From Methylophaga sp. (GTDB taxonomy: Bacteria; Pseudomonadota; Gammaproteobacteria; Nitrosococcales; Methylophagaceae), in NCBI GenBank assembly GCA_002706095.1, contig PAJP01000012.1:1-47390 (forward strand): a stretch of 47,390 nt of DNA, read 5' to 3'. Under the pieces are notes generated by a model. That model worked only from the letters and a program-made list of their open reading frames with translations, did not search any database and was not told the origin of the DNA. Positions 21,788 through 43,935 of the stretch are shown here, piece after piece (within the stretch, counting starts at the first letter, position 1; every line of letters begins with the position of its first letter). The translations under genes were made by a program, and so were the position numbers.

Positions 21788-21798
21788 GTTTCGTAGTT

Positions 21799-22716: not shown

Positions 22717-22722
22717 CGCATT

Positions 22723-22878: not shown

Positions 22879-22900
22879 TATGTCTAGGAGGGTATAAAAC

Positions 22901-23030
22901 TCAATTCCTCTCACCAAAAGCTTTCAAATCAACCTTCTCATCATATCCCCAGTTTTGATCAATTATTCCATCACGAACAAATTTATGAATACTGGAGTAG
23001 GGCCAATCGATGGCTTTATCGACATCATCT
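22901..23030 (-). pseudogene. REP-associated tyrosine transposase (RAYT), C-terminal remnant
   Basis: The last 42 codons and stop of a RAYT (IS200-related) transposase: DKAIDWPYSSIHKFVRDGI, then WGYDE and FGERN-stop. DWPYSS.H.+VR.G is the conserved C-terminal signature. Everything upstream, including the HUH and Tyr catalytic parts, is missing; the frame ends exactly where the TGTCGC transposon terminus begins. REP units at 21799-22878 are its probable substrates. The missing 5' part was not found on the other side of the Tn7-like element. Confidence 0.8.
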
Positions 23031-23200
23031 GTCGCGCAACTGATTTAGTGACCGTGGGAGACACTATAAATCAAGGGTTTAGGTTTCTACTACACCATCC
23101 AGTGACCGTGAGTTTATAACCATCATCTGACCGTGAACCCAATGAAATAACTCAACAAGTGACCATGAACGAGATCACACTAATCAACAGATGACCCTTA
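23031..23200. repeat. Tn7-like transposon end with five TGACCGTG-type sites
   Basis: Starts with TGTCGCGCAA at the truncated RAYT gene. Direct repeats follow at 23049 (TGACCGTG), 23103 (TGACCGTG), 23128 (TGACCGTG), 23160 (TGACCATG) and 23192 (TGACCCTT), with spacings of 54, 25, 32 and 32 bases. A TGT terminus plus several spaced direct repeats is the known architecture of the left end of Tn7-like elements, where TnsB binds. The sites are visible; TnsB binding is inferred. The terminal coordinate may be off by one base. Confidence 0.7.
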
Positions 23201-23226
23201 GCCTGGAGTAGTGTGTTAAGTCTGAA

Positions 23227-23616: not shown

Positions 23617-23648
23617 AGCGATGTCCTTTTGCTAATTGAACATAGTAA

Positions 23649-23918
23649 TTACTCAGCCAAGCTATGGTTACAGTAGCGACAAATCTTGGCGTTTTTCATG
23701 ATAAATTCCTGACAACTAGGGCATCGTTGTCGACCTGCTTTATTCTCCCGACTTTCTACAGCGTCTTCTGTTGGCGACATCAACAGAGCATGTGGTAGGG
23801 CGATAATAAATATCATGGCTCCATAAAACCACCACAGTCCAAAAGAACGACCCTTATGCTGCGCAATGAGTCCGACAATAATGCCGAAAATGATCCAAAG
23901 AATGATCAGCTCCATCAC
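23649..23918 (-). CDS. Small membrane protein with C-terminal zinc ribbon
   Basis: 89 residues. Two N-terminal hydrophobic segments (LIILWIIFGIIVGLIA and LWWFYGAMIFIIALPHALL) precede a cytoplasmic zinc ribbon with two CxxC pairs (RCPSCQEFIMKNAKICRYCNHSL). The layout is common in short proteins of unknown function found in variable regions. It lies 30 bases downstream of the 105-residue gene and upstream of the Ltp gene on the same strand, so they are probably co-transcribed. Confidence 0.7.
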   Translation of the reverse strand: MMELIILWIIFGIIVGLIAQHKGRSFGLWWFYGAMIFIIALPHALLMSPTEDAVESRENKAGRQRCPSCQEFIMKNAKICRYCNHSLAE

Positions 23919-23930
23919 TATTTTCCTAAG

Positions 23931-24248
23931 TTACGTGTCGTATTCTTTGCCGCCAGTCGAAATAAGATAAAGCGAATGACTATAGGGCAGGCGCAAAAGT
24001 ATTTTTGATTTATTGACTACTCCAGCCATCATCATGCCCCGGCATAAAAGTGAAACAGAGCCAGTCTCTCGCTCACACAAAGCATCGGCACTATCGATAA
24101 ACTTGGTCTTATTTAGCCTTAAAATAACAACGGTACGGCCATCAGGAACAGCGCCCATAGGCTGAACAACAAAAAGCGTTAATTGCGTATAAGCAATGAT
24201 ATGAATGATGAGAATAGCAGCAAGTGACAACCCAAATTTTTTATTCAT
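23931..24248 (-). CDS. Hypothetical protein with N-terminal membrane segment
   Basis: 105 residues. An N-terminal hydrophobic segment (FGLSLAAILIIHIIAYTQLTLFV) anchors or exports a soluble part of about 75 residues containing two Cys (DALCERETGSVSLLCRGMM), possibly disulfide-linked in the periplasm. I recognise no family. It is part of the transposon cargo and lies 12 bases upstream of the zinc-ribbon gene. Confidence 0.6.
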   Translation of the reverse strand: MNKKFGLSLAAILIIHIIAYTQLTLFVVQPMGAVPDGRTVVILRLNKTKFIDSADALCERETGSVSLLCRGMMMAGVVNKSKILLRLPYSHSLYLISTGGKEYDT

Positions 24249-24391
24249 GTTTCTTCCTTAAATCATATTAGGCACATGACACCTCTATCAGTGCCGGATG
24301 TCACAAAAGCAGTTTAGTCGAGACCACATCTTTAGCCTTATCCACACAAAACCATTGCATTTCAGTAGAAATTTTAACAATTAATAAAAAA

Positions 24392-25225
24392 CTATTTGTT
24401 TTTTAACAAGTCAGCTTTCATCTGATTAAATTCGTTTTCAGAGACAAGTCCTTTATCTTTAAGCTCAGCCCATTTGAGAAGTTCATCAGCAATTGAAAAC
24501 TGTTTCCTCTTGTGACATTTCCAGGGCTTAAAATGAGTTTTGGGATTTAAATTTCTTAATGAATCTGGCGACGTAGAGAAGATTGCATTGCGAGCAACCC
24601 ATGCTGAATGTCTGCTCAATGGCTTATAAAATAGCGTGCCCACCGCTATAAAATATGCCAAAGCTATTAGCAATCCTATTGATGAGAAGATAAAGCCCTC
24701 TTTGGGTTCACTCCATGAATCAACAGTATCAAGAACAGAGTTTCTGGCATCGATGCGGGCTTGAATAATTCTAAATGCGTCATTTGACCCATATTTAGTT
24801 TTGATCTCTTCAGGACTCATTGTGCGAAGATCGATTTCTAATTGGGGTGGTGACTCTGTTTCAAAACCATAGCTCTTCCAATACATAGCATTTGTCGCAG
24901 CCTGTTCAATATCAACTCGATTTCCTTCAATATGCGAGGGTTGGACATTGCTACGTATCTGGGTCATGGCTTGAGTGTATTCCGCTCCGAAGTACAGAGC
25001 AGAGATGAGGCTGCCTATTAAGACGACAAAGGTGAATATCTTAAAATTCTTTACGGCCGCATTGATGTATGCGAAGTTTTTATTCTTCTTCATCATGTAT
25101 ACGCCAAATCCTAGAAATAATGCAGGGACTATCCCGATAAGGAAAAATACTGCTGGTGCTAGAAGGATGATGAAAAATAATAACTTTCCTTGTTCGACTG
25201 GTGTCAAAGGTTGGTCTTGCAACAT
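24392..25225 (-). CDS. Membrane protein with C-terminal SHOCT domain
   Basis: 277 residues. Two hydrophobic segments lie near the N-terminus (LLFFIILLAPAVFFLIGIVPA and FTFVVLIGSLISALYFG), then a polar central region (RSNVQPSHIEGNRVDIEQAA) and a third segment (IGLLIALAYFIAVGTLFY). The last 34 residues, ADELLKWAELKDKGLVSENEFNQMKADLL, are a SHOCT oligomerisation/binding motif. SHOCT proteins are frequent in mobile DNA; the function is unknown. First cargo gene after the tns operon in gene order, about 320 bases from the tniQ stop. Confidence 0.75.
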   Translation of the reverse strand: MLQDQPLTPVEQGKLLFFIILLAPAVFFLIGIVPALFLGFGVYMMKKNKNFAYINAAVKNFKIFTFVVLIGSLISALYFGAEYTQAMTQIRSNVQPSHIEGNRVDIEQAATNAMYWKSYGFETESPPQLEIDLRTMSPEEIKTKYGSNDAFRIIQARIDARNSVLDTVDSWSEPKEGFIFSSIGLLIALAYFIAVGTLFYKPLSRHSAWVARNAIFSTSPDSLRNLNPKTHFKPWKCHKRKQFSIADELLKWAELKDKGLVSENEFNQMKADLLKNK

Positions 25226-25549
25226 ATTTCCCTTTCCGTAGGTTCAAATAATTTGTGACTTAATGTCGAGTCATGTAGGCCCAATGCTCAGGACTCGTGT
25301 AATTTCGGGATTAAAATACACAGCTGAAAGTAACTTACCATACTCGGTGTATGTATGGTTTCATATGTGTACGGCTTGAATTGTATTTTGACTAAATATC
25401 TGTAAAAAATCTAAATCAGTCAATTCAGATGAGATTAGAACTTTTACTCCAATCATTATGTATCATGGACGAATCTCTAAAGTGTCATGCGAGCAGTAGG
25501 AAAAACTTTGAGACTTTAGGCTGAAGAACTACAGGCTTCAGTGGGGCTC
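25226..25549. other. Gap between tniQ and the cargo genes, with nested inverted repeats
   Basis: No gene. It contains ACCATAC (25337-25343) and GTATGGT (25353-25359) around a nine-base spacer, nested inside AAAATACA (about 25313) and TGTATTTT (about 25384). An outer CGAGTC...GACTCG pair lies near 25267-25295. The inner arms match the CCATAC/GTATGG palindrome at 31151-31162. It may be a regulatory site or a boundary between the tns operon and cargo. Confidence 0.5.
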
Positions 25550-27379
25550 CTAATTATCGAACCATCCTTCAGGCAAACCAACTTTTGCTTCCATACGACT
25601 TACAGCTAGATCGCCAAAGCTTTTTTTCTCGCGAAGCATGAGTGATAAGGTGCCTTGGGATCCACCGAATTTTCTCGTGAAATTTGAAATCCCTCCGTGA
25701 TCATTCACAAGCCGAATTAAGTTTTTTACTCTCTTGGATGAAGCGTCTTTTTGGCTGAAAGAAGGCTTCCTTCCAGTTTTGGTCTGGTATGAAGAGATCG
25801 ATTTAAGCGTCTTGGCTTTGAGGCCGCTCAGTTTGTTTTTCTGGTAGATTTTGACCAGGGTATTGTGGGGCTCAGGCTCAATGCCAATACTGGCTAATTT
25901 TTCTGCCAGGTTGGTTGCATTAACATCATATTCATTTGCGATTTTACCCACGACGATATACTTGGCTTTGAATTGCTCTAGAGAGTCACTCATTAGCAAA
26001 AGTTTTCTCGTCCCGGAGGCTGGATGTTCCTTTAAAAAGCCATGTTTGATTAGATCAACAATGACGGCATGATAGGTGTCTAGCACCTTAGCAGCTTCTT
26101 TTGCAGTCAGCGTTTTTTCAGGGCTGGATTCTTTTCTTTTGGCTTTTGCGGTTTCGGCGTTAGCTACCCATAAATCCGAGATGGATTTGCTGTCGCCGTA
26201 GTAGATTGATAGCTTTCCTGCCAGAGCATCACGAGCAATTTCATCGATTGGATAATGCTGTATTTTTGTTAATCGGGGTTGCCCCTCAATCGGATCGGCA
26301 GTATCCAATAACTTGCCAATAAATTCGTTTAGTGAATCCAGATCCACCATTAAGAATTTATGACGCTTCTTGTCTGGGCCTTTCTCGTTGAAAGTTTTAG
26401 ATTTTATATAACGTTTGGCGATAAGCCTTTTAAGCACAAATGCCGTTAGGCCAGCACTTTGAGCTGTTTCATTGATCGGAGCCCACCAGTCTGACTCTGG
26501 CAGTACAAAACCCAAATCGGTGCTTCTCTTGGGGGATATAGGCAGCCTAGCCCCTGCAGTGCGGGCACGCTTCTTAAAGACGGTAGACAAATACGGTAAA
26601 TATTTCCATTTATCAGAAAGTTGGGTCCCGTAATTTGATAGTGCTTGGTAAAACGAACATTCATCTTCACAGGCTGGCCATAGTCGACAAACTACATCCC
26701 TCATTTCTGAGACAGTTTTAAGCTGGGGACTGACTCTATAATGCGGACGAAGGCAGTTTGGATTAGTTAAGAACCAGGCAAGCATTAATCGGTCCAGGAC
26801 TATCTTTAGTTTCTGCCTGTCGTCAATAAGGTTCGATAAAATCTCGGCGCATTTTAGTTCAGCTTCGGATGCGTCAACAATTTGAGCTGGTTTCTGACAA
26901 CATACACAATATCGAGTGAGCATATGGTTAGTCGAATATTCACTCCCACAGGCTTGGCAGTCATCCACTAATTGACATCGATGCTCTGGGCACGCTGTGA
27001 CGAATGAAATCATCCAGGCTCTCTGATGCGGACGTCCCTCTCGCACACAGAGTGGGCAGAACCGCCACCGTTGGAAACTGACATAGTCGTCAGAGATAGT
27101 GCCGGGAATTGGCTGACGAATATCAAGTGCAGCTTGACGAATCTCTTCTGTTTTTGACTCGGTGAAACTAGCTAAATTGCTTACGTTTAGGCTCCCCTTA
27201 GCTAAGAGTTTCATTTGGTTCTTGTCTAAGCCCTTGCCGTTGGTGTTGAGCCCAAAATAACTCGCAATCGAAAACATGCTTCCGTAAGAGTTAATGTGTG
27301 TTGCACGTGATAAGAAACCCGGGAGAGATTCACCTTCTTCCAGTGAGCATGGCACAGGCAGGCGAAAGTTATGTGACAA
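25550..27379 (-). CDS. tniQ: TniQ/TnsD family target-selection protein
   Basis: 609 residues, the long TnsD-like form. The N-terminal TniQ part has LPVPCSLEEGESLPGFLSRATHIN and zinc-ligand pairs (CPLCVREGRPHQRAWM, CPEHRCQLVDDCQACGSEY, CVCCQKPA). The C-terminal half contains several helix-turn-helix-like segments (LTAKEAAKVLDTYHAVIVDLIKHG; GGISNFTRKFGGSQGTLSLML). In Tn7, TnsD recognises the attachment site and recruits TnsC. It overlaps tnsC by 11 bases. Its own target site is unknown: no known Tn7-family attachment gene lies next to the element. Confidence 0.9.
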   Translation of the reverse strand: MSHNFRLPVPCSLEEGESLPGFLSRATHINSYGSMFSIASYFGLNTNGKGLDKNQMKLLAKGSLNVSNLASFTESKTEEIRQAALDIRQPIPGTISDDYVSFQRWRFCPLCVREGRPHQRAWMISFVTACPEHRCQLVDDCQACGSEYSTNHMLTRYCVCCQKPAQIVDASEAELKCAEILSNLIDDRQKLKIVLDRLMLAWFLTNPNCLRPHYRVSPQLKTVSEMRDVVCRLWPACEDECSFYQALSNYGTQLSDKWKYLPYLSTVFKKRARTAGARLPISPKRSTDLGFVLPESDWWAPINETAQSAGLTAFVLKRLIAKRYIKSKTFNEKGPDKKRHKFLMVDLDSLNEFIGKLLDTADPIEGQPRLTKIQHYPIDEIARDALAGKLSIYYGDSKSISDLWVANAETAKAKRKESSPEKTLTAKEAAKVLDTYHAVIVDLIKHGFLKEHPASGTRKLLLMSDSLEQFKAKYIVVGKIANEYDVNATNLAEKLASIGIEPEPHNTLVKIYQKNKLSGLKAKTLKSISSYQTKTGRKPSFSQKDASSKRVKNLIRLVNDHGGISNFTRKFGGSQGTLSLMLREKKSFGDLAVSRMEAKVGLPEGWFDN

Positions 27380-28328
27380 AGATTTCTCCCATCCCCCTCA
27401 CAATTGGGGCAAGTTCGCGACTTGTTTCGTTATAACGAGAGAATTGACGTACATTTTCCATGCTGACATTGAACGCGTCGGTCAAACCGTCATGACTGTC
27501 AATTTGTGTGCAAGCCGCCTTGTGAAGATGTTCCGCTGTGATAGTCTTACTGTTAGCTTTGAATGCTTGCACAACCGCAGTCGTCAGAATGAGTACTAAT
27601 TGGCGCATAGCGCCACCAGACGCTGCATGACACCTATCTTCGAATTCTTGACAGTCAATCTGCATCCCATGTTCTTCAATGGTATTGATATATCTACGTA
27701 CAACTTTACGCCATGAACTCTTATCCTTTGGATAGACAAAATGGCTCAAGTAGAAATGCGTTTGAAACCGACTTCTGATCTGTGGATCTGCATTCCATAA
27801 AAGCATCAGGCTATCCATTCCAGACAAGATGAAGGACACACCTGTCTCATCCAGAATTTTGAAAGCATTGAGAATATTGTCGATGGTTTTTTTTGATGGA
27901 TCCCCACCTGGGATTAAATGTTGCACTTCATCAATAATGATCAGACGGCATTGACGCTCCGAAATTGTCGATACTAACCTGCGTTCTAAATCTTTAGTGC
28001 TGGATTGTTTTGCAAGGGGATCACCAAATCCAACCAGTAGTTCTGCAAACATGCCTTTGACAGTAGATCCTGTGGTTAATTGTGTCCTGATGACGGAGTC
28101 TTCACCATAAAGTTTAGTACCCTGTTTCAGAACCGCTTTGGTTAGGGTCGTTTTACCAACACCACTTTTACCGTAGATAATGATTCCGCTTCCAGGCATG
28201 CCGAAATCACGCAGCTTCAGTAATTCCATTGATCGATCAAAAGCCTTCTCGAAATTACCATGAGGTATACATCGGCCAACTATTGCCTCGTTGAGTGTTT
28301 TAATTGGATTTTCGGATTGTTTTGCCAC
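27369..28328 (-). CDS. tnsC: TnsC-like AAA+ transposition regulator
   Basis: 319 residues from the GTG at 28328, preceded by GGGAGG at a good distance; an ATG at 28355 overlaps tnsB and lacks a ribosome site. Walker A is GKSGVGKTT, Walker B is LIIIDEVQHL, and a sensor-like stretch (FILSGMDSL) follows. In Tn7-like systems TnsC is the ATP-dependent link between TniQ/TnsD bound to the target and the TnsA/TnsB transposase. The gene sits ten bases after the tnsB stop and overlaps tniQ, so the operon is tightly packed. Confidence 0.92.
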   Translation of the reverse strand: MAKQSENPIKTLNEAIVGRCIPHGNFEKAFDRSMELLKLRDFGMPGSGIIIYGKSGVGKTTLTKAVLKQGTKLYGEDSVIRTQLTTGSTVKGMFAELLVGFGDPLAKQSSTKDLERRLVSTISERQCRLIIIDEVQHLIPGGDPSKKTIDNILNAFKILDETGVSFILSGMDSLMLLWNADPQIRSRFQTHFYLSHFVYPKDKSSWRKVVRRYINTIEEHGMQIDCQEFEDRCHAASGGAMRQLVLILTTAVVQAFKANSKTITAEHLHKAACTQIDSHDGLTDAFNVSMENVRQFSRYNETSRELAPIVRGMGEIFVT

Positions 28329-28338
28329 TTTTTCCTCC

Positions 28339-30360
28339 CTAAATTTCAAAGTCATCTGGCATGTCGTCTATCTCATCACCAAGGTCATCATCTGTAATAC
28401 GTTGTGAAGAGGGCTCAGGACTAACTTCTTTAATGGGCGCGTTTGGATGATGGCCGAATTTAGTTTCTTCATCTTCCATTAATTCCCCGTTGAGCGGAGC
28501 GCCATGGATGTAACGACTTGCTTTAGCTGGTAATTTCTTCACTCCTTTTTTTTCTACAAATTCATTAATTTTATTGTCCAAAGCCAAAATGGAGTCGTGG
28601 TATGAGCTATCTGTGAGATTGGCTTTCTTGCGGTTTCTTATCTCTCTAAGGACGACCTTATGATTGAATAGGGAACGTCCATGAGCTATCTCATCTTTGG
28701 ATTCAACAGGAAAGAAAGTATGGTTGAGTTCATCAAACACCCAGATGAGACCAACGTCAGCTGCAGACCATTTAAACTCAGCTTCAGGATTGCCTTTAGG
28801 GTAGTCTGAAGCAACTTGGTTTCTGTATCTGGATAACCACTCATTGTTGTACACGAGAGAGTTAAAATGGATCCCGTCAGGCTGAATAGCAAAGCGACGA
28901 GGACTTGATTTAGACAGGCATAGTTGGACGTAATCCTGACTCAAGCCAGAACCTGAGAAGCCGTTTTTCTGAATGGAGTTCTCCCAAAGTTGCTGAGGTG
29001 TTTGACCTGTGTCAGTAGGGGTTTTATGTGCAACAGTAACAATCCATTGGATGAGAAGCTCAGAAAACTCATCGAAAGTCAGATGTGGGTAATCAAGGCC
29101 GTGTTTCTCTGGTTCATACTTGAAGACCTGACCAGGTAGCTTCGCCAAGAGCCGTTTATTGATTACTCCGAACTCACGTTCAACTTGTGATTTATAGTAA
29201 GGTTGTCTAGGCGGCGAATAGGTTAGAGTGATACCAAGTTCCAGCGCGGCTTGTTCCAGATCGCGGCTGAGGAAATCTTTGCCATTATCGAGAATTAACT
29301 CTTCAGGGATCCCAAACATTGGCCATTGCCATTCTGGTTTTCCACCAAGCTCAGTGATGTTCTTGGGTAAGACAGCCGTTCTCAATGCGTTCATCACTGT
29401 TTGAGCTGATGGTGCATCAGGAGAGACCCACACCCCTAGAATTGCCTCACTATACCTGTCGACTAACAGCGTGACCCAAGGCCGGATGAGTACACCAATC
29501 CCTAGATCGACATAAGCGTCCGCTTGAGTATGATCTGCTTGTACTTGTTCTAAGTGTTTATGCACGATAGGTGAACTCCTCTGGTAACGGGTCATTTTGT
29601 AGGCGTATTCGTGGCTGTACCGAGCTTTGAGCACATCGTATTCATCAAGCTTTTTAATATGAAGACACAGTGTTTTATAGCTTGGAGGTTTGATAAGTTC
29701 TTGGCCCCGCCTATGCCGTTCCCGGTTTTCAACATCGATGTTCGCAGCCATGAGTTGATGTGCATCTGTCGCAGGGCGGCGGTCATTATTTAAATGTACG
29801 GTTTCGATTGCCCATTCGAGCCAATCTGCTTGCTGCTTGTTGAGCTTTGAATGTCTGTTACCTGAGGGATTTCGTACGAGAGAGAGAACATTTCCTCCGG
29901 ACTGTTGCCATTTGCGGTACCAGCGTCGAACTGCAGCTTCACTCATTGGCGTCTCTGGTGGGGTGTGGTCTCGTTCTTTACACTGTTTGATATATTTCTT
30001 GTGTGTTTGTAGGGCAAAACTAGTTACTGGCTTTTCTGACAGCTTTCCACCATTCTTTCTGTATTCATCCATCTCAGTCATGTAGAAATGACGCATCATA
30101 ACCTCAGGGTGCTGCTGGGCAGGGACACAAGATAGGTTTATCTGTGTATGTGGCAATTCCCGGTAATAGTCAGAAGTCTCATGCAGCTCAATTTTGCCGC
30201 GTTCAGACAAGTCGAATAACTCTTCCGCAGACAGGTATTTCTGTGCCCGTCCTTTGTGCGGGACTAATATGTAGCGTCCACCTGGGCCTTTACCTGCACA
30301 GGTATACTTATTACCTAGAATAGAAAGGCAATCGCCATTTGCCAGACTTAATCCAGCCAT
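28339..30360 (-). CDS. tnsB: TnsB-like DDE transposase
   Basis: 673 residues. N-terminal DNA-binding helix-turn-helix region (MSEAAVRRWYRKWQQSGG), then the RNase H-like catalytic core: first Asp in QADHTQADAYVD, second in ELILDNGKDF, and Glu in KSQVEREFG, with 35 residues between the second Asp and the Glu (DDX35E). A Mu-type beta-barrel and an acidic C-terminal tail (DDDLGDEIDDMPDDFEI) follow; in Tn7 this tail contacts TnsC. It joins 3' ends to the target. Overlaps tnsA by 13 bases. Confidence 0.93.
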   Translation of the reverse strand: MAGLSLANGDCLSILGNKYTCAGKGPGGRYILVPHKGRAQKYLSAEELFDLSERGKIELHETSDYYRELPHTQINLSCVPAQQHPEVMMRHFYMTEMDEYRKNGGKLSEKPVTSFALQTHKKYIKQCKERDHTPPETPMSEAAVRRWYRKWQQSGGNVLSLVRNPSGNRHSKLNKQQADWLEWAIETVHLNNDRRPATDAHQLMAANIDVENRERHRRGQELIKPPSYKTLCLHIKKLDEYDVLKARYSHEYAYKMTRYQRSSPIVHKHLEQVQADHTQADAYVDLGIGVLIRPWVTLLVDRYSEAILGVWVSPDAPSAQTVMNALRTAVLPKNITELGGKPEWQWPMFGIPEELILDNGKDFLSRDLEQAALELGITLTYSPPRQPYYKSQVEREFGVINKRLLAKLPGQVFKYEPEKHGLDYPHLTFDEFSELLIQWIVTVAHKTPTDTGQTPQQLWENSIQKNGFSGSGLSQDYVQLCLSKSSPRRFAIQPDGIHFNSLVYNNEWLSRYRNQVASDYPKGNPEAEFKWSAADVGLIWVFDELNHTFFPVESKDEIAHGRSLFNHKVVLREIRNRKKANLTDSSYHDSILALDNKINEFVEKKGVKKLPAKASRYIHGAPLNGELMEDEETKFGHHPNAPIKEVSPEPSSQRITDDDLGDEIDDMPDDFEI

Positions 30361-31142
30361 GAGCCTTTAGTCTTGTTATCGACGGGGACCAATGTCTGCA
30401 AATGAATTGCTTTATCCCAGTCAATGGACAATGCTCCGTCCAGAATGAGGCCAGCAATTACTGCACGCACTGAAGGATATGCAGTGGTTAGTGTTAATAG
30501 ATGATTAAAGTCCAATGGCATGACTTTATGCAGCCAAGCGCTAACTGTATTGATCAACCTTGGTTGAGGCGCTCCCTTGCATAAACTAAGTAAAAAGCGG
30601 GCATTCTTTCTTCGCTCAGTCATCAACTCCTCGTCTGTCAGGAGGGTATAACCGATGCCACGTTGCTGAGCGTATTCCTTCAGCGCCCAATATCTTGCCT
30701 TGAATTGTGGTGAATGGATATTGGTCTCGTAACGAATATCTACCAATGCCAGACCATCGTTTAATACCAATTCAAAATCAGGATAAACAGTCCTGAATTT
30801 GTCTAAAAAATAGAGGCTCACACCATAAGGTTGTGCTCTGTATGACTGTAGTTCCGGATAGGACTCAAATACGGTACAGGCATTTTTTTCGAGGGCGCTT
30901 TCAAATGTAATTAAAGCCTGATTGATGCGACTGGCGAAGTAACCCACGAAGTGGGTTCTGAAGCCAGGTTTAATGACTGTCCGAGATACGGTCTGTTTTA
31001 TCATCTTCACAGGTAGCAGTAATTCGCACCTGGGATCTTCACGAAACAGCGAGTCGAAGACTTCAATCTTTGGCCTATCTTTGGGTATTTCTGTAGAGCC
31101 TAAAAATGCCCGATGAGTATTTTGGTGTGTATTATCTGTCAT
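30348..31142 (-). CDS. tnsA: TnsA-like endonuclease with Lys-to-Arg change
   Basis: 264 residues from the ATG at 31142; ATG at 31154 and TTG at 31166 are alternatives. TnsA is the restriction-enzyme-like subunit that cuts the 5' strands. Aligning by eye with Tn7 TnsA: Glu63 corresponds to the Glu in TFESALEKNA, Asp114 to VYPDFELV, and Lys132 of QVKPA to Arg in VDIRYE. The usual E/Q-V-K is thus D-I-R. RAQPYGVSLYFLDK and GIGYTLLTDEEL match the family fold. Cleavage may be weak or lost, which would favour copy-type transposition; this is an inference. It lies 43 bases after the upstream gene stop. Confidence 0.85.
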   Translation of the reverse strand: MTDNTHQNTHRAFLGSTEIPKDRPKIEVFDSLFREDPRCELLLPVKMIKQTVSRTVIKPGFRTHFVGYFASRINQALITFESALEKNACTVFESYPELQSYRAQPYGVSLYFLDKFRTVYPDFELVLNDGLALVDIRYETNIHSPQFKARYWALKEYAQQRGIGYTLLTDEELMTERRKNARFLLSLCKGAPQPRLINTVSAWLHKVMPLDFNHLLTLTTAYPSVRAVIAGLILDGALSIDWDKAIHLQTLVPVDNKTKGSWLD

Positions 31143-31150
31143 TAAACAAT

Positions 31151-31162
31151 CCATACGTATGG
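31151..31162. promoter_or_regulatory. Palindrome CCATACGTATGG at the tnsA start
   Basis: Perfect 12-base palindrome just upstream of (or overlapping) the tnsA start. Its half-site CCATAC recurs with GTATGG around a nine-base spacer at 25338-25358. Possible operator for the element's own regulator. Confidence 0.4.
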
Positions 31163-31184
31163 ACAAATTTGTTCAAATAAAAGC

Positions 31185-32111
31185 TCAATTTCTCAATGCT
31201 AACTTCAAAAGTTCTCTCAGAAAAGGCTCACCCTCATTAGTGTCATGTTTGGCTCGAGCAGCCTGCCGGTAAACAGTAAGCTCTCCTCCATCGGCCAAAC
31301 CAATCACCCCGAATGAATTCTTTTCCGTTGAACGGTATGGCCGTGCTTCATCATCAGGCAGAACAAGCCAACAAAAGTCGACATAGTGTTCAGGTGATAC
31401 TAGTTGGCTAATACTGCCCAGCCCTGACTTGTAATGGAGTTCAAAAATATGAATGTCGACGGGGGATTCAAGGGATTCTTGAACCATTGCAAGTCCGTCA
31501 TATGACTCTCTGTTATGTTCATCTTTGACGTTATGTAAGACAACGCAGCGTGCTGGTTTTCGGCTGCCAGTCCAAGCGCGGTCTTGGGATAAAGCTAGAA
31601 TGCTCTCGGCTTCAAACCTAACCGCCGTGTGAACATGAGGCCGAAAGTATGCTGTTCCACGCCCCCGGTTTGTTGCACCATCAAGTGCCGGACGATAGGC
31701 GGCCCAGGTTTGTTTGAGTGTGCGAATAGAGATCTGTCCTTTAAGAACTTGCTCTTTGATATTCCCAGTTATTTCGGCAGGGGCGACTCTTTCCAACCGC
31801 TCGAGAATTTCCAGTGCTTCAGCAGAAACGTAATCGGGTAGATCGTATAATTCACAGAGAGAGTCATCCGTCGACCGCAGAGAGTTGTAATAGCTTCCAG
31901 CTTTTTTATATCGCCAGCATCTGGCTCTGGAAATGTCATAGGTTTCCGAGAGGTTTGCCATCCATTCAGAAAAATTGGCGAAATCCGGCCGCCATAGTTC
32001 ATTCTGATGAGTCTGCTCTATAAGATGAGCAATTGGTCCCCAGTGCCCACTTTCCAGCTGTTCAATTGCCTGCTCGGTGAGGCCGAATAATCTTTCAGAT
32101 TTATTGTTCAT
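31185..32111 (-). CDS. Unrecognised Tn7-like accessory protein, HTH plus nuclease-like C-terminus
   Basis: 309 residues from the ATG at 32111 (a TTG at 32147 would lie inside the -35 element). Residues about 1-130 are helical and basic, with segments suited to DNA binding (WMANLSETYDISRARCWRYKKA; ISIRTLKQTWAAYRP). Residues about 165-300 are alpha/beta (CVVLHNVKDE, YDGLAMV, VDIHIFELHYKSGLG, YVDFCWLVLPDDE, NSFGVIGLADGGELTVYRQA). This order resembles MmcB/PD-(D/E)xK-like domains, with FELHYKS in the place of ExK. I cannot name a family. Position ahead of tnsA suggests regulation or a strand-cleavage role; both are inference. Confidence 0.7.
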   Translation of the reverse strand: MNNKSERLFGLTEQAIEQLESGHWGPIAHLIEQTHQNELWRPDFANFSEWMANLSETYDISRARCWRYKKAGSYYNSLRSTDDSLCELYDLPDYVSAEALEILERLERVAPAEITGNIKEQVLKGQISIRTLKQTWAAYRPALDGATNRGRGTAYFRPHVHTAVRFEAESILALSQDRAWTGSRKPARCVVLHNVKDEHNRESYDGLAMVQESLESPVDIHIFELHYKSGLGSISQLVSPEHYVDFCWLVLPDDEARPYRSTEKNSFGVIGLADGGELTVYRQAARAKHDTNEGEPFLRELLKLALRN

Positions 32112-32153
32112 GAATCTTACAATATAACAATCTAGTCCATCCGTCAAGACTAG
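32112..32153 (-). promoter_or_regulatory. Promoter and palindromic operator of the transposon accessory gene
   Basis: On the minus strand TTGACG (32147-32142) and TATTGT (32124-32119) are 17 bases apart, with the ATG at 32111 about seven bases after -10, suggesting a leaderless mRNA. CTAGTC (32153-32148) and GACTAG (32137-32132) form an inverted repeat with a ten-base spacer that spans the -35 box. Self-repression would fit. Confidence 0.5.
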
Positions 32154-32267
32154 GCTGGTAATGCGTTCAAAACGGAAGAAATCTATCGTGCGTTACCACG
32201 ATTGGATTTATGTCAATTAATGCAAGAGAAACCAACATTAATAAGCTCTGCTACAGTCACGGATTAA
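32154..32267 (+). pseudogene. C-terminal scrap of an unknown gene
   Basis: An open stretch from just after a TAG at 32151 to TAA at 32265: AFKTEEIYRALPRLDLCQLM and a short tail ending SATVTD. It has no start and reads like the end of a real protein, but I do not recognise it. It begins right at the operator of the transposon accessory gene, which may mark the junction of mobile and flanking DNA. Confidence 0.4.
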
Positions 32268-32289
32268 GCATTTTGGTTGGGCTGTCAGG

Positions 32290-32400
32290 ATGACAAAACC
32301 GCAAACGATTCAAATGTTCCTCCCGTTTGGTAACCCACAAGGAACACGCGTGGCTGGGATAACGACTCGAACAGTCAGGGTCTTTGATACTCCTCTGTAG
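32290..32400 (+). pseudogene. N-terminal scrap of a GIY-YIG/DUF4357-type protein
   Basis: Thirty-six codons, MTKPQTIQMFLPFGNPQGTR then VAGITTRTVRVFDTPL and stop. Proteins of the GIY-YIG nuclease family that start (M)xxPxTIQIFLPDGxPRGxRIAEITxRxVQ are common in defence and mobile loci; this matches their first residues only. The remainder, including any nuclease domain, is absent. Confidence 0.55.
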
Positions 32401-32593
32401 GGCATGGCAATTAAAGTATGAATCTGCACTATAAAACAATACGTTAGTGTTTTTATGATGACATAAAGAAATGTGAATAAATGCATAAAAAGCTTTAAAC
32501 CTATTTAAAATACTGTAAATGCATCAAAAACCTATGAATCTCCTTAGCGGGCATGTTCTGGGTGCCAGTATGCAGGTCATAACTGTCTTTGGA

Positions 32594-32622
32594 TTGACTT
32601 ACAAGACGAACGGTCGTATTAT
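32594..32622 (+). promoter_or_regulatory. TetR promoter with operator between -35 and -10
   Basis: TTGACT (32594-32599), 17-base spacer, TATTAT (32617-32622). AAGACGAACGGTCGTATT (32603-32620) fills the spacer and matches the perfect palindrome at 33281-33294. The ATG lies seven bases after -10 with no Shine-Dalgarno, so transcription should start at or next to the start codon. Confidence 0.75.
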
Positions 32623-32628
32623 TCTCGT

Positions 32629-33225
32629 ATGAGTAAGATTCCACCTAAATTAAGTAAACGAGAGCAAATACTTGAAGCAGGCGTCAGCCTACTGATGCAG
32701 TATGGGTATCATGGCACCGGGCTAAAACGTATTTTAGATGAAGTACAGATTCCGAAGGGCTCGTTTTATGGTTACTTTAAAAGTAAAGAAGACTTTATTG
32801 CTGAAGCCATCACCTATTACACAGAAGGGTTTCTTGAAGATTTGAGAGGTTTCCTTAATAACCCATCAGATAATGGCTTCGTAGCTTTAAAGAAGTTTTA
32901 CAGATCACTGATAAATACAAAGTCCAATAACGACTTCAATAAAGGGTGTTTACATGGCGATCTGATGGGTGAGGTCGCCACAGTCAGTGAAAAATTTAGA
33001 GCCAACCTCTATAGGGCTGTTGAAGATTATGTGAAGCTACTTGAAGGTGGTCTTAAGTCTGGACAGGAACATGGGCAGGTCAGAAATGATATTAGTGCCA
33101 GAGCCATGGCAGATATGCTCTTTGATAGTTGGCAAGGAGCACTACTTCGCTCCAAACTAAACCAGAGTGTTGCTCCACTGGAGGAGTGTTATACGCATCT
33201 TTTTGAGGACTACTTTTTAGTCTGA
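32629..33225 (+). CDS. TetR family repressor of the molybdenum hydroxylase operon
   Basis: 198 residues. N-terminal helix-turn-helix (REQILEAGVSLLMQYGYHGTGLKRILDEVQIPKGSFYGYFKSKEDF) is canonical TetR. The C-terminal domain has NKGCLHGDLMGEVA, a motif of the AcuR/NemR-like branch that often senses small reactive or carbonyl-type molecules. It is predicted to bind the 18-base palindromes in its own promoter (32603-32620) and ahead of the downstream enzyme genes (33279-33296), giving autorepression and operon control. The inducer is unknown, likely a substrate of the molybdenum enzyme. A terminator follows. Confidence 0.9.
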   Translation: MSKIPPKLSKREQILEAGVSLLMQYGYHGTGLKRILDEVQIPKGSFYGYFKSKEDFIAEAITYYTEGFLEDLRGFLNNPSDNGFVALKKFYRSLINTKSNNDFNKGCLHGDLMGEVATVSEKFRANLYRAVEDYVKLLEGGLKSGQEHGQVRNDISARAMADMLFDSWQGALLRSKLNQSVAPLEECYTHLFEDYFLV

Positions 33226-33239
33226 ATTAACGAAAACTG

Positions 33240-33269
33240 AAAGCAACAAAACTGTTGCTTTTATTTTTC
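33240..33269 (+). terminator. Terminator of the tetR gene
   Basis: Stem AAAGCAAC (33240-33247) and GTTGCTTT (33254-33261) with a six-base loop and a T-rich tail. It separates tetR from the molybdenum operon, so the latter needs its own promoter. Confidence 0.85.
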
Positions 33270-33278
33270 ACTAACAAT

Positions 33279-33296
33279 AAGACGACCGGTCGTCGT
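33279..33296. promoter_or_regulatory. TetR operator, perfect palindrome GACGACC-GGTCGTC
   Basis: A 14-base perfect palindrome at 33281-33294 flanked by AA and GT, nearly identical to the site in the tetR promoter. It lies about 70 bases upstream of the MocA-like gene. A promoter for the operon must be close but no clean -35/-10 pair is evident. Confidence 0.75.
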
Positions 33297-33364
33297 ATGG
33301 TAGGTGATGAGCTAATTTACATCTGCCACATTAGATGGACCTTGAAAATGTTTAGTGAGGAGAT

Positions 33365-34018
33365 ATGAGTACACAGCAGGCATGTCGTAGTGATGAGATG
33401 ATCATTAGTAATGTTCAGGCTGTGCTTTTAGCAGCCGGAGCTTCATCACGATATGGTGATGACAAGTTGCTTGCCGAACTTATTATCAACGGCACCAAGC
33501 AGTCTGTTATTTGCCACACACTTACTAATTGGCTAGCAGTTTTTGACAACATCATTGTTATGGTTCGTCGTGGGCATATACAGCTGCAAAATCATCTTGA
33601 AGGAAGATTTGATAAGGGAAAGATTCAACTTGTGGTTGCAGACGATGCTGACCTAGGCATGGGACATTCAATTGCAGCTGGCGTGAACAAATCCAGTGAT
33701 TCAGAAGGCTGGATTATCGGACTGGCCGATATGCCTCTTATTCCGAGCAGTGTTATTCAATCGGTTTGTTCGGCCTTGATGAAAGGGGCGCTTATTGCCG
33801 TGCCAGTGAGAGAACAGCGTCGAGGTCACCCCGTCGGGTTTGCACGTAGGTATGAGGAACAGCTTCTTGCCCTGAAGGGGGACACGGGAGCAAAAGCCGT
33901 CATTACTGAAAACCGTGCTGATGTGACTCAAATACCATCCACAACAGACAGTATTTTTTACGACATTGATAAACCTAGTGATCTAGTTAATGCACCGCAA
34001 TTCATTGCGGCTAATTAA
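33365..34018 (+). CDS. MocA-like molybdenum cofactor nucleotidyltransferase
   Basis: 217 residues, with GAGGAGA ahead of the ATG. Hallmarks of the MocA/MobA fold: [16 protein letters not shown] (nucleotide-binding loop), [13 protein letters not shown] (metal-binding Asp) and [12 protein letters not shown]. MocA attaches CMP to molybdopterin to form the cytosine dinucleotide cofactor used by many xanthine-oxidase-family enzymes. First gene of the operon with the 2Fe-2S and Mo subunits; its presence argues that the partner enzyme uses MCD. The short gap to the next gene (about 50 bases) supports co-transcription. Confidence 0.88.
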
Positions 34019-34070
34019 GGCTTACCAGTCAAGGAAGCTTGCACTACTACAAATTCAACAGGAGAGCGTC

Positions 34071-34523
34071 ATGATTGAATTAAAAGTGAATGGAAAACCA
34101 TATCAACTGGATGTGGCTGAAGATATGCCTATTCTGTGGGCATTACGTGATGTAATCAAATTAACCGGCACTAAGTTTGGCTGTGGTGCCGCTTTATGTG
34201 GTGCTTGTACGATACACCTAGACGGCACACCTACACGCTCTTGTGTTACGCCAGTGTCTTATGCTCAAGGCAAAAACATTACTACCATCGAGTCAATCGG
34301 TGAAACTGAAGTTGGTCAAAAGCTCCAGAATGCATGGCATGAGTTAGATGTGGTTCAGTGTGGTTATTGCCAATCTGGACAGATCATGTCGGCAGCAGCA
34401 CTACTCTCCAACAACAAATCGCCATCAGATGAGGACATTGATAACGCGATGTCGGGCAATGTCTGTCGATGTGGAACCTACTCACGCATCCGTGAAGCCA
34501 TCAAACAAGCTGCAAAAGCTTAA
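34071..34523 (+). CDS. 2Fe-2S subunit of a molybdenum hydroxylase
   Basis: 150 residues from the ATG at 34071, preceded by AGGAGAG. The plant-type ferredoxin cluster is bound by [13 protein letters not shown] and a later Cys (TRSC); the second, helical cluster by [10 protein letters not shown] and [11 protein letters not shown]. This is the usual small subunit of two-subunit enzymes such as isoquinoline 1-oxidoreductase (IorA) and periplasmic aldehyde oxidoreductases. It passes electrons from the Mo centre to an acceptor. Gene order small-then-large subunit is standard. All eight Cys are present. Confidence 0.93.
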
Positions 34524-34544
34524 TTAACTGCCAGGGGAATAGTC

Positions 34545-36755
34545 ATGAACTTTAAACTGAATAACCCAGAAACTGATGGCGTTGAACTTCTTACTGATAA
34601 AGGTATATCGCGCCGTCGATTTTTAATTGGATCTGCTGGCGCTGGTGCAGGACTGTTGGTGGGCTTTGCTGTATCCCATAAGCTGCTCGCTGGCGTCATA
34701 AATGGTGATGAAGCTACTTTTATTCCAAATGCGTTCATTCGAATTTCTACCAGTGGAGACGTCACCCTCATCGTATCAAAAGCAGAGATGGGGCAAAGCG
34801 TATATACCTCCCTGCCTATGCTTATCGCTGAAGAACTCGAAGTAGAGCTGGATAAAGTCACGTTAGAGCACGCTCCGGCAGACGACTCAAAATATGCTGA
34901 CCCAATTTTGGGTGCTCAGGTTACTGGTGCGTCGACCTCTATTAGGGGGGCATGGGAGCCACTAAGACAGGCAGGTGCCGTTGCCAGAGAGGTCTTAATC
35001 GCTGCCGCCGCTAAAGAATGGAGCGTGAATGCCTCTGAATGCTATGCCGAAAATGGTGTGGTCAAACTAACAAACTCAGACAGACAGTTCACGTACGGCG
35101 AATTAGCAGAAAAAGCGGCCAGTATGCCTGTACCGGAGAAAGTCACGCTCAAGAAACCAGAAGATTTTAAGCTTATTGGTAAACCTATCAAGCGTTTGGA
35201 TGGTAAAGAGAAAGGTAATGGTACGGCGCATTATGGTATCGATGTCGATTTACCAGACATGAAGATTGCCACTATTGCCATGACACCGATCTTGGGTGGA
35301 AAGGTTAAGAAGCTCAATACTCCGAAAGCCAAAGCAATCAAAGGTGTTGTCGAAGTTATCGATATGGGTGACTCTGTCGCTGTTATTGCTACTGATATGT
35401 GGACGGCCAAACAGGGTATTGCCGCCCTTGAGATTGAGTGGACGCACGATAAGTTTAAACCACAAAACATGGAAGACATTATTGCTGAACTGGATAAGGC
35501 CAGCAAAACAGGTAGCGGCACGGCCAAAGCAGTTATCGCAAGAAACGATGGCGACTTTAGCAAAGCTTATAGTGAAGCATCGGATACCTTTGAAGCCGTG
35601 TATCAAATGCCGTTCTTGGCACATTCGCCAATTGAGCCTATGAATGCCACCGCGCTTGTTCAGAAAGATCGCTGTGATATTTGGGCCGGTACACAAGTGC
35701 CGACTATTGCTCAAGGTCATGCTGCAGAAATAACCGGTCTACCGGCAAGTCAAATCTTTGTTCATAACCACCAAATAGGCGGTGCATTTGGGCGACGCCT
35801 TGATGTCGACTTTATTGATCAAGCCGTGCGTATCGCCAAGCAGGTCAATTATCCAGTCAAACTGGTTTGGACGCGTGAAGAAGATATGCAGAACGATGTC
35901 TACAGACCGTATTACTACGACCACCTAAAAGCCGGCTTGAATGACAAAGGCGAACCTGTAGCTTGGCATCACCGTGTAACCGGTGCTTCCATCATGCTTC
36001 GTTGGATCCCATCACTGGTTAAAGATGGTCTTGATACGGATGCGGTAGAGTTGGCTCAGAATCCATTCTATGCCCCTGAAAATATTCTTGTTGACTATGT
36101 CAGACAGGAAACAAACGGCATGAGACCTGGATGGTGGCGTGGTGTAGGCGCGACGCATAATGCCTTCATGGTGGAGAGCTTTATTGATGAGTTGGCTCAT
36201 CGTGCCTCGGTTGATCCTGTCACATATCGTCGTAATTTATTGAAGCACCATCCTCGCGCCTTGGGTGTGCTGGAACTCTGTGCAAAGAAGGTCGACTGGG
36301 GTAAAAAACTCCCTGCTAATCACGGTCTGGGCATATCTGTGTTCGAAGGTTTTGGAACTTATCTTGCTCAAGTTGCAGAAGTGAAAGTGGAAGATGACGA
36401 AGTGAAAGTCATTCGTGTGGTCGCTGCAGTGGACTGTGGAATGGTTATCAACCCTAATCACGTTGTCGCTCAAATCGAAGGTGGCATTGTCTACGGATTA
36501 ACGGCTGCACTCTGGGGAGAAATTACCATCGAGAATGGTGTTATCAATCAGAAGAACTTTGACACTTACCAACTGCTGAGGATGAACCAATTACCTAACA
36601 TTGAGGTGCATTTGGTGAAAAGTGCTGAGGCTCCTGGAGGCATCGGTGAACCAGGTACAGCTGGTATCGCACCAGCTGTGACGAATGCCATCTATGCAGC
36701 ATCGAAGAAACGGATTCGTGAGCTACCTGTTTCCAAGCACTTAGATGCTTATTAA
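34545..36755 (+). CDS. Molybdopterin-binding subunit of xanthine-oxidase family (IorB-like)
   Basis: 736 residues. A twin-arginine signal (SRRRFLIGSAGAGAGLLVGF) near residue 25 indicates export of the folded enzyme with its small subunit to the periplasm. The catalytic domain follows: GQSVYTSLPMLIAEELEV, GAFGRRLDVDF, GVGATHNAFMVESFIDELAH and GGIGEPGTAGIAPAV, whose Glu is the catalytic base. This architecture is that of isoquinoline 1-oxidoreductase/aldehyde dehydrogenase beta subunits. Substrate is likely an aldehyde or N-heterocycle; it cannot be fixed from sequence. No cytochrome c subunit gene is nearby, so the electron acceptor is unknown. Confidence 0.9.
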   Translation: MNFKLNNPETDGVELLTDKGISRRRFLIGSAGAGAGLLVGFAVSHKLLAGVINGDEATFIPNAFIRISTSGDVTLIVSKAEMGQSVYTSLPMLIAEELEVELDKVTLEHAPADDSKYADPILGAQVTGASTSIRGAWEPLRQAGAVAREVLIAAAAKEWSVNASECYAENGVVKLTNSDRQFTYGELAEKAASMPVPEKVTLKKPEDFKLIGKPIKRLDGKEKGNGTAHYGIDVDLPDMKIATIAMTPILGGKVKKLNTPKAKAIKGVVEVIDMGDSVAVIATDMWTAKQGIAALEIEWTHDKFKPQNMEDIIAELDKASKTGSGTAKAVIARNDGDFSKAYSEASDTFEAVYQMPFLAHSPIEPMNATALVQKDRCDIWAGTQVPTIAQGHAAEITGLPASQIFVHNHQIGGAFGRRLDVDFIDQAVRIAKQVNYPVKLVWTREEDMQNDVYRPYYYDHLKAGLNDKGEPVAWHHRVTGASIMLRWIPSLVKDGLDTDAVELAQNPFYAPENILVDYVRQETNGMRPGWWRGVGATHNAFMVESFIDELAHRASVDPVTYRRNLLKHHPRALGVLELCAKKVDWGKKLPANHGLGISVFEGFGTYLAQVAEVKVEDDEVKVIRVVAAVDCGMVINPNHVVAQIEGGIVYGLTAALWGEITIENGVINQKNFDTYQLLRMNQLPNIEVHLVKSAEAPGGIGEPGTAGIAPAVTNAIYAASKKRIRELPVSKHLDAY

Positions 36756-36777
36756 GCAATGATGTTGAGTTACGGTT

Positions 36778-37776
36778 ATGAATTCACCTGACTTAGATGT
36801 ACTCAAGCGTGCTGAAGAGTGGCTAGCTGCCGGTCACGCAGCATACCTTTTCACTGTCATCAAAACCTGGGGCTCAGCGCCAAGAGTCCCAGGCTCTATT
36901 CTTGTCTTACGTGAAGACGGCCATTTAATCGGTTCGGTCTCTGGCGGGTGTATTGAGGATGATTTAGCGGACAAAGCAAAAGCTGGAGCTCTTCCACGTA
37001 CACCGGAAGTGCTTCGCTACGGCCTCACTCGCGATGAAGCGCAGCGCTTTGGTTTGCCCTGTGGTGGCGAGTTAGCGATATTTTGTGAACCATTATCTGA
37101 TAAAGCCAAGCTGACCAGTATCATCAGTGGTATTGAGTCCCATCAATTACTACGCCGTTCTGTTCATATGAAAACCGGTGAGGTGACGATAGAAAATGCC
37201 ATTCCAGGCAGTGAGCCGACACTGGAAGGTGACTTTTTTCACAGCTACTTTGGTCCGAAATTACGTTTGATCATCATTGGTGCTAATCAACTCGGCGCGG
37301 TGCTGGCCAATATCGCCACGACGTTGGATTATGAGGTCATCGTTTGTGATCCAAGAGAAGAGGTGGCGAGTGAATGGCAAGTATCAGGAAGCCAGTTACT
37401 TCAAATGATGCCCGATGATGCAATCGTCAAATTGAACCCGGATTCGCATACGGCTATCGTGGCCGTTACACATGATCCCAAGCTTGATGATATGGCCTTG
37501 TTAGAAGCTCTAACGAGTAATGCTTTCTATGTCGGTGCACTGGGCTCTAAAAAGAATCAGGTTAAACGTCGAGAAAGAATGAGAATGTTTGATCTAACTG
37601 AGGCAGAAATTTCTCGCCTCAGAGGACCTGTAGGCATAGCCATTGGTAGTCGGACTCCTGCCGAGATAGCTGTATCGATATTGGCAGAAATTATTCAAAC
37701 TCAAACTCAGCAGAGAGAAACCGCTAGTTCGCAGGAGGAAATAACACCCACTGCTAAAGCATCGGCGTGTGGCTAA
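36778..37776 (+). CDS. xdhC: XdhC/CoxF family maturation factor
   Basis: 332 residues. The N-terminal XdhC domain shows KTWGSAPRVPGSILVLREDG and GSVSGGCIEDDL; the C-terminal Rossmann-like domain shows LRLIIIGANQLGAVLANIATTLDYEVIVCDPR and FYVGALGSKKNQVKRRERM. In Rhodobacter capsulatus XdhC binds the molybdenum cofactor and, with a NifS-like desulfurase, adds the terminal sulfido ligand before insertion. The adjacent desulfurase gene supports the same job here. Starts about 20 bases after the Mo subunit stop. Confidence 0.9.
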   Translation: MNSPDLDVLKRAEEWLAAGHAAYLFTVIKTWGSAPRVPGSILVLREDGHLIGSVSGGCIEDDLADKAKAGALPRTPEVLRYGLTRDEAQRFGLPCGGELAIFCEPLSDKAKLTSIISGIESHQLLRRSVHMKTGEVTIENAIPGSEPTLEGDFFHSYFGPKLRLIIIGANQLGAVLANIATTLDYEVIVCDPREEVASEWQVSGSQLLQMMPDDAIVKLNPDSHTAIVAVTHDPKLDDMALLEALTSNAFYVGALGSKKNQVKRRERMRMFDLTEAEISRLRGPVGIAIGSRTPAEIAVSILAEIIQTQTQQRETASSQEEITPTAKASACG

Positions 37777-37788
37777 TCTGGAAAACTC

Positions 37789-38946
37789 ATGCAAATCGGC
37801 CAAACAATTTATTTTGATTATCAAGCATCCACACCTCTCGCTCCAGAAGTCTCTGCGGCCATGCAGCGGGTTCGACAGAATAGCTTTGCCAATCCGCATT
37901 CAACTCAGCACATTCTGGGGCGACGATCTGCAAGTGAAATCGACCAAGCTCGAAAAAGTATTGAAGATGTAATTGGTGCGGCACCAGAAGAAATTATCTT
38001 CACATCAGGCGCTACAGAGGCAAATAACCAGGCTATAGCCAGTGTTATGTTTGGTAACACCTCTGGACGTAAGAAAGTCCTGATCAGTGCTATCGAGCAC
38101 AAATGCATCAAGAATGCCGCCTACTTTTATGCTCAAAAATTAGGATATGTTGTAGAGGAAATTCCAGTACTAGCAACGGGTATCATCGATATGAAGGCCT
38201 ATAAAAGCATGCTCTCTGAGCAGGTTTTATTGGTTTGTATCATGGCGGTGAATAACGAAATCGGTACGATACAGCACATCAGTAAACTGGCATCGCTCGC
38301 CCATGATTGCGGTGCCTTATTTCACTGTGACGCAGCTCAGGCTCCAGAAGCTTTAGATATAGATGTAAAAGCATGGAATGTAGACATGTTGAGCCTGTCC
38401 GCTCATAAGGTCTATGGCCCGAAGGGGATTGGTGCACTGTTTATGAAAAACAGCTTGCAGGCTGAGTTGCCACCATTAATAAATGGTGGGGGGCAGCAAG
38501 CTGGAATGCGCTCAGGCACTTTACCAACGGAGTTATGCGTCGGTTTCGCGACAGCATTAACGCTGTCCAAGCAATGGGCAAATGATAGAAGACCAAGACT
38601 GAAAGAGCTCAGAGATTACTTTGTAACTGAACTCACAAACTCAGATATTGATTTTCGAATTAATGGGCACTCGCAATACCGTCATCCTGGTAACTTGAAT
38701 ATCCAGCTTCTTGGCTGTAATGCGTCAGAGCTGCTGACAATGATGGAACCTTATGTCTGTGCATCTACCGGGTCAGCATGCAACAGCGAAATGCTCCTTC
38801 CATCACATGTACTCAAATCAATAGGCTTGTCAGATGAAGAAGCGACTTCATCTATACGGTTTAGCTTGGGCAGATACACGTCATATGCCCAAATTGATGC
38901 GATAGTAGAAAAGCTGTCGGTGAGTATCAAATCACTCTGCGTATAA
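37789..38946 (+). CDS. Cysteine desulfurase, probably for Mo-cofactor sulfuration
   Basis: 385 residues. PLP enzyme of the NifS/IscS class: FTSGATEANNQAI, the Schiff-base Lys in SLSAHKVYGPKG, and the active Cys in STGSACNS. It begins 12 bases after xdhC with only a poor ribosome site, so coupling to xdhC is likely. Genomes have a housekeeping IscS in the isc cluster; this copy in a molybdenum operon is best explained as the sulfur donor for the cofactor, as shown for NifS4 with XdhC in R. capsulatus. The last gene of the operon. Confidence 0.9.
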   Translation: MQIGQTIYFDYQASTPLAPEVSAAMQRVRQNSFANPHSTQHILGRRSASEIDQARKSIEDVIGAAPEEIIFTSGATEANNQAIASVMFGNTSGRKKVLISAIEHKCIKNAAYFYAQKLGYVVEEIPVLATGIIDMKAYKSMLSEQVLLVCIMAVNNEIGTIQHISKLASLAHDCGALFHCDAAQAPEALDIDVKAWNVDMLSLSAHKVYGPKGIGALFMKNSLQAELPPLINGGGQQAGMRSGTLPTELCVGFATALTLSKQWANDRRPRLKELRDYFVTELTNSDIDFRINGHSQYRHPGNLNIQLLGCNASELLTMMEPYVCASTGSACNSEMLLPSHVLKSIGLSDEEATSSIRFSLGRYTSYAQIDAIVEKLSVSIKSLCV

Positions 38947-38964
38947 GCACTAAGGCAAAAAAAA

Positions 38965-38993
38965 GAGGAGCTCGGGGTACAAACGAGCTCCTC
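38965..38993 (-). terminator. Hairpin terminator for the SDR gene
   Basis: GAGGAGCTCG (38965-38974) pairs with CGAGCTCCTC (38984-38993). On the minus strand it runs into eight T residues, so it is the terminator of the SDR gene at 39096; plus-strand readthrough from the desulfurase lacks a T run. Confidence 0.8.
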
Positions 38994-39095
38994 AAAAACA
39001 CTACTAGAGAGAGGAAAAGTAATCCTTGGCAGAGGCCTCTCTTTGCTTCCTGAGGCGAGAAGCCTACAGCCAAGTAAGCTGAAACAAAAAGGGGC

Positions 39096-41119: not shown

Positions 41120-41131
41120 GTCTTCGATCAA

Positions 41132-43929: not shown

Positions 43930-43935
43930 ACGAGA

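Follow-up and report, generated by a model that had tools for sequence, protein, structure and literature searches.

The window, as we call the whole stretch of 47,390 nucleotides of Methylophaga sp. DNA that was analyzed, carries the operon X-tnsA-tnsB-tnsC-tniQ of a Tn7-like element, and this operon is led by a gene that we call X (Table 1). The Tn7-like set of TnsA, TnsB, TnsC, and TniQ is complete; TnsC and TniQ exceed their Pfam cut-offs, while TnsA and TnsB, which fall below theirs, were assigned from weaker matches (for TnsA, PF08722 at 0.0018 and NF033179 at 1.3e-11) together with gene order. Within TniQ, residues 549 to 608 match the phage regulator family phrog_5736 (2e-7), and residues 421 to 458 weakly match the excisionase family phrog_2907 (0.0028). 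The element has the TGT ends, transposase-site repeats, and 5-bp target duplication of a Tn7-like transposon.

Table 1. Features of the X-tns operon and of the adjoining end of the element, in window coordinates
Feature	Positions	Strand	Description
gene X	31185..32111	-	helical N-half (predicted; residues 1-150) and MmcB-like PD-(D/E)xK C-half (about 155-308), with E-L-H replacing E-x-K
promoter-like hexamers	32119..32147	-	TTGACG-17-TATTGT; 9/12 match, as a pattern not above chance
inverted repeat	32132..32153		CTAGTC-N10-GACTAG spanning the -35; possible operator, with its block retained in the sister
tnsA	30348..31166	-	Glu and PD retained, D-I-R where the others examined show (E/D)-x-K
tnsB	28339..30360	-	DDE transposase
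tnsC	27369..28355	-	TniB/AAA
tniQ/tnsD	25550..27379	-	609 aa, C-terminal match to phage regulator family
right end	23030..23168	+	TGTCG terminus and four TGACCGTGA-like repeats
target-site duplication	23025..23029	+	TCATC; present in reverse complement (GATGA) ahead of the left end at G000:C3:38361

The search for a left end within the window gave none. A left terminus matching the right end is located at G000:C3:38361 (L087:2362), 3 bases past the stop codon of a gene identified as nrdB (Ribonuc_red_sm, 4.7e-63), and the element thus spans at least two contigs, with a length of about 41 kb if nothing intervenes. Since the left end lies on contig C3 behind nrdB, the genes from 32629 to 47390 are cargo. 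A candidate left end near X, at 32290-32400, was rejected because this segment is a gene start, the 36-codon beginning of a broken gene that is divergent from X; a longer copy of that gene in another genome of the same species, G805 (L060:906-1769), bears DUF4357 and looks GIY-YIG-like by eye only. The cargo just inside the left end (L087:2589-5362) includes genes for a SMODS-domain protein and a patatin, a pair that we take to be CBASS-like. We also found a related element behind nrdB in G805, with the duplication ATTAG at both ends; it shares 98.6% identity over 10 kb with an element in another species (G007). The word nrdB is absent from the main text of the Tn7 papers that were checked for it.

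The original prediction, which stands for the most part, placed an unknown gene ahead of tnsA, and the open frame found there is a real coding gene. It has 308 codons on the minus strand, starts with ATG at 32111, and ends 18 bp upstream of tnsA in its longest frame, which has a TTG start at 31166. A sister element of the same genus (L003) has the identical gene order, with X first and a gap of about 50 bp between X and the tnsA frame, so that X is present in the same place in the one sister lineage found. Identity between the two elements is 52% for X, 61% for tnsA, 68% for tnsB, 73% for tnsC, and 61% for tniQ. All five genes are stop-free in the sister, and their third codon positions are far less conserved than the first two (identities for X of 0.66, 0.75, and 0.37 by codon position), a sequence pattern of purifying selection on X in both elements. 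The N-half of X, predicted at low confidence to be helical, is better conserved between the two copies (94 of 151 residues identical) than the C-half (66 of 155). X was not found described in the literature searched, including passages of PMC10293859, PMC8649781, and PMC12458937, and no X-like Tn7 component was noticed in the open-licence literature searched.

By sequence profiles, the C-half of X is related to MmcB-like PD-(D/E)xK domains, in agreement with the original prediction. The window X itself has no match at E ≤ 1 in Pfam, NCBIfam, PHROGs, PADLOC, or PDB sequences, and it therefore falls below both the Pfam MmcB-like family (PF06319, cut-off of 22 bits) and the NCBIfam sce7726 family (NF033832, threshold of 70 bits). 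The cyanobacterial plasmid homologues L080 and L081 pass PF06319, at 31.4 and 33.5 bits, and the homologues L073 and L082 stay below it, at 21.6 and 14.3 bits; L081 also matches, at 3.8e-4, the solved protein 3dnx, which we take to be MmcB-like. When compared with hhalign, the nine C-halves that lack the catalytic Lys matched the four that bear it at 97.4% over 155 columns (score of 76.8), and the window and sister sequences alone matched the same four at 90.7% over 132 columns (score of 45.9). Against sce7726, the nine reached 94.2% (score of 53.4) and the window-sister pair only 18.5% (score of 28.2), where the top control scores, from 30 column-shuffled sce7726 profiles, were 13.5 for the nine and 19.2 for the pair. 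Our first X-family profile had caught an sce7726 protein at 5.9e-5, in the C-half only, and hhalign placed the family profile at 93.9%. The X C-halves had no hhalign match to the profile of TnsA, itself a PD-(D/E)xK protein (1.6% and 0.2%). These profiles, together with an alignment of 13 members, agree with the two-part protein that had been proposed. A check by structure prediction and fold search had also been proposed; the AlphaFold models built from two sequences were of unusably low confidence (mean pLDDT of 44.4 and 50.7), and fold searches with them gave no credible match and no prominent PD-(D/E)xK family, which says nothing either way, so that it is the profiles that speak against a fold unrelated to nucleases.

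The active site of X is incomplete. Among the 13 aligned members, four have the catalytic Lys (E-I-K in L080, L081, and L082 and E-N-K in L073), and it is missing in the window, sister, and DISARM-associated proteins, in four from Ghiorsea-type genomes, and in two from Enterococcus. Where D...E-x-K would be expected, the window has D...E-L-H and the sister D...E-I-H. Activity in the absence of the usual Lys is occasionally seen among nucleases, so the word "dead" can be applied to X only provisionally; the guess that X is a nuclease was right on ancestry and probably wrong on activity.

TnsA, too, lacks the catalytic Lys, here that of an (E/D/Q)xK motif. When 16 TnsA proteins were aligned, D-I-R appeared only in the window and its sister, and the other 14 have Lys, as does the Azospirillum TnsA (L058), which was examined separately; the predicted absence of the catalytic residue is thus borne out, with Arg in its position and kept in the sister. 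Mutations of TnsA catalytic residues stop cut-and-paste but not copying transposition, according to PMC8649781. A natural Arg-for-Lys TnsA bears on which of these modes of movement the element uses. X accompanies the Arg-type TnsA in both elements compared and, in searches with a family HMM, was absent from the DNA examined around all 15 Lys-type loci, which came from a genus search (six), a class sample of 303 genomes (five), and the four plasmid records opened out of 19 that matched TnsA. The linkage proposed earlier between X and an Arg-type TnsA is therefore seen in two of two cases, as a correlation within a single lineage: both elements that carry X descend from a common ancestor, the association is probably one evolutionary event, and two linked cases with a single ancestor cannot establish a functional tie between X and TnsA. 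These counts and the position of X next to tnsA would fit an accessory subunit of the transpososome, located with TnsA and TnsB at the ends, that assists in cleaving strands or recognizing ends where TnsA has lost its Lys. We consider this unlikely, since X itself has no Lys, the association reduces to a single event, the DNA around the Lys-type loci is short (3.2 to 8.6 kb each) with some of these loci near relatives, and X homologues occur with no TnsA seen nearby. The original proposal that X helps TnsA with nuclease activity is not supported and was rejected as the main reading; having His for Lys in both Tn7-linked copies, X is a poor candidate to supply a nuclease to TnsA.

Homologues of X are sparse and are found in varied mobile-element and defense contexts. 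X was present in 2 of 95 relatives sampled (the window genome and G007) and, by single-sequence search, in 2 of 369 genomes of the class (the window genome and G308). The first profile identified 7 of 398 genomes of the phylum, namely the window genome, five of one family (the Ghiorsea-type genomes), and one with an sce7726 protein; among genomes sampled from that family's class, 5 of 78 have it. Two of the five are Ghiorsea, and the class is presumably Zetaproteobacteria if the assignment of Ghiorsea extends to the rest of family f208. A first scan of genome contigs gave none, a second gave two Ghiorsea loci that carry one and the same gene, identical to that of L024, and no relatives were found in the viral contigs or the phage records scanned. 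In G308, the homologue is directly downstream of drmA-drmB-drmC, where PADLOC calls DISARM; the homologue of a DISARM locus at L006:13701-14591 has drmC on one side and a metallophosphatase (PADLOC PDC-S10) on the other. In two Ghiorsea-type loci (L022:8397-15038 and L024:8136-14440), the homologue is followed by three genes, the last encoding a tyrosine recombinase of 726 to 822 aa and the middle ones having no match at any curated cut-off; in two others it is flanked by IS genes (L023) or followed by a truncated second copy (L026). Among plasmid records with matches at 1e-3, 131 of 133 are from Enterococcus, and PemK and Fic genes adjoin the homologue in the three annotated Enterococcus plasmids of this type that were opened. 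Homologues are also present on plasmids of E. wangshanyuanii (next to a divergent integrase), Lactobacillus, Geminocystis (annotated as MmcB family, next to a tyrosine recombinase), Cyanobacterium (also annotated as MmcB family), and Flammeovirga, where one with an intact ExK (L082:6992-8062) is directly upstream of a type I-B CRISPR-cas operon.

The neighborhoods bear on two further explanations for X. Tn7-like elements often acquire foreign DNA-binding proteins for target choice, according to PMC10293859, and X relatives also occur in tyrosine-recombinase loci, so X could be a factor for choosing or licensing targets, a second route besides TniQ comparable to TnsE or TnsF of other elements. 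This seems improbable to us: the window and G805 elements both sit at nrdB, an X-less Lys-type tnsA also adjoins nrdB (L018 and L045), TniQ itself matches a regulator family, and at DISARM and CRISPR loci the homologues have no transposition to direct. Relatives next to DISARM, type I-B CRISPR, a PemK/MazF toxin gene, and a Fic gene, some of them with a complete D/ExK motif, would instead suit a cargo gene for defense, exclusion, or DNA repair that is co-transcribed with tnsABC by chance. We give this little credence as well, because X is first in the transposition operon of both elements, outside any separate cargo block, and because its active site is incomplete. The idea that X is a new Tn7-like component stands insofar as X is an operon member in one small branch, but its relatives serve unrelated mobile and defense loci, which makes X look like a borrowed accessory.

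The N-half of X is probably DNA binding, as judged from its homologues. With no match at E ≤ 1, the window X has no recognized DNA-binding domain, and no helix-turn-helix Pfam model matched it. The DNA-binding-like character claimed for this half is partly backed by the weak matches of one homologue (L024) to DUF3102 (0.013) and borfam_49 (0.005) and by palindromes before some homologues; another homologue, L081, matches ParB 6s6h weakly (0.99). Of the 17 loci tested, 8 have a strong palindrome, with arms of 12 to 16 bp, at the start of X or immediately upstream of it; they comprise six from Enterococcus (five of them close relatives), one from Lactobacillus, and one from Flammeovirga, and 0.3 to 5.7% of random windows from the same locus score as high. 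Two cyanobacterial loci have in common a smaller, weaker conserved palindrome before X, and the other seven loci (window, sister, DISARM, and four Ghiorsea-type) have nothing above chance. The most economical reading makes X a control protein that binds DNA and, in some lineages at least, regulates itself, its nuclease domain having been retained for binding. Two of the palindromes just upstream of X homologues on Enterococcus plasmids are 34 bp long (L005:6489-6522 and L041:7955-7988), and the motif CTAGAC was seen by eye upstream of five X genes.

In the window, the promoter hexamers and inverted repeat that had been predicted upstream of X do exist, but neither is above chance by itself. 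Three promoter-like sites were found in 800 bases, compared to a mean of 2.4 in shuffled sequence; a 6-bp repeat occurs in 62% of shuffles of the upstream stretch, and CTAGTC-10-GACTAG with up to two mismatches is expected 0.82 times per window. Nor would the promoter be private to X, as had been suggested; it would be that of the whole operon, with a predicted transcription start at about the X ATG. The block TAGTCTTGACGRATGGAC over the -35 is conserved at 17 of 18 positions in the sister element, which is above chance (matched in 0 of 60 shuffles), and conservation of the promoter alone could account for it.

We favor, at about an even chance, the explanation that X acts as a control factor that binds DNA, probably regulates its own operon, and carries a nuclease domain that has degenerated. 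The N-half would bind DNA, with the repeat that covers the -35 of the operon as its most likely site, and this binding would repress or tune X-tnsABC-tniQ. The C-half would descend from an MmcB-like PD-(D/E)xK nuclease whose catalytic Lys has been lost, and it would most likely bind DNA or a partner with no cutting. We infer DNA binding, autoregulation, and loss of cutting from relatives that adjoin varied mobile and defense loci and from an active site that lacks its key residue, features that make a controller likelier than a cutter. A wider hypothesis, which we regard as doubtful, is that the members of the X family make up a class of control proteins not described before, formed from a plasmid MmcB-like nuclease and a DNA-binding half, that lost the Lys in several lineages and was repeatedly recruited to govern Tn7-like transposition, tyrosine-recombinase elements, DISARM, and CRISPR, with a dead domain that might sense the state of DNA and release repression. 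To our knowledge, the control of Tn7-like transposition outside CRISPR-associated elements has been little studied, and X, a leading operon gene whose relatives neighbor recombinase, DISARM, and CRISPR loci, offers a candidate common switch that can be put to the test.

Such a controller would differ from the known systems that it most resembles. Xre-type regulators exist in CRISPR-associated Tn7-like elements, and X is proposed for the same role, DNA-binding control of a transposition module, but has no Pfam match at E ≤ 1. The X C-half is homologous by profile to MmcB-like PF06319 proteins, and the two cyanobacterial homologues annotated as MmcB pass its cut-off, but X adds a conserved N-half, has His for the catalytic Lys, and in the window is below Pfam detection. 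In the sce7726 family, the Y-E-I-K-S motif and the strands that follow align with the X family; sce7726, in contrast, retains the Lys and lacks the X N-half, and its neighbor sce7725 was found in three of six plasmid records opened. Like X, TnsE, TnsF, and the HTH protein of Tsy elements are extra proteins in Tn7-like or tyrosine-recombinase elements, but as described in PMC10293859 they comprise target selectors, recombinases, and one small HTH protein, whereas X is degenerate-nuclease-like.

Other observations concern the DNA surrounding these elements. Structured RNA within 20000-34000 was rejected, as all Rfam matches were below threshold. On G805:C1, the stretch from 31061 seems to be repeated at the end of the record (3084222-3106976), with the terminus and last 1.8 kb matching at the same offset and 99.9% identical, which may be assembly redundancy. 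In the window, the segment at 21797-22879 contains short repeats that recur at many places across genomes of the genus.
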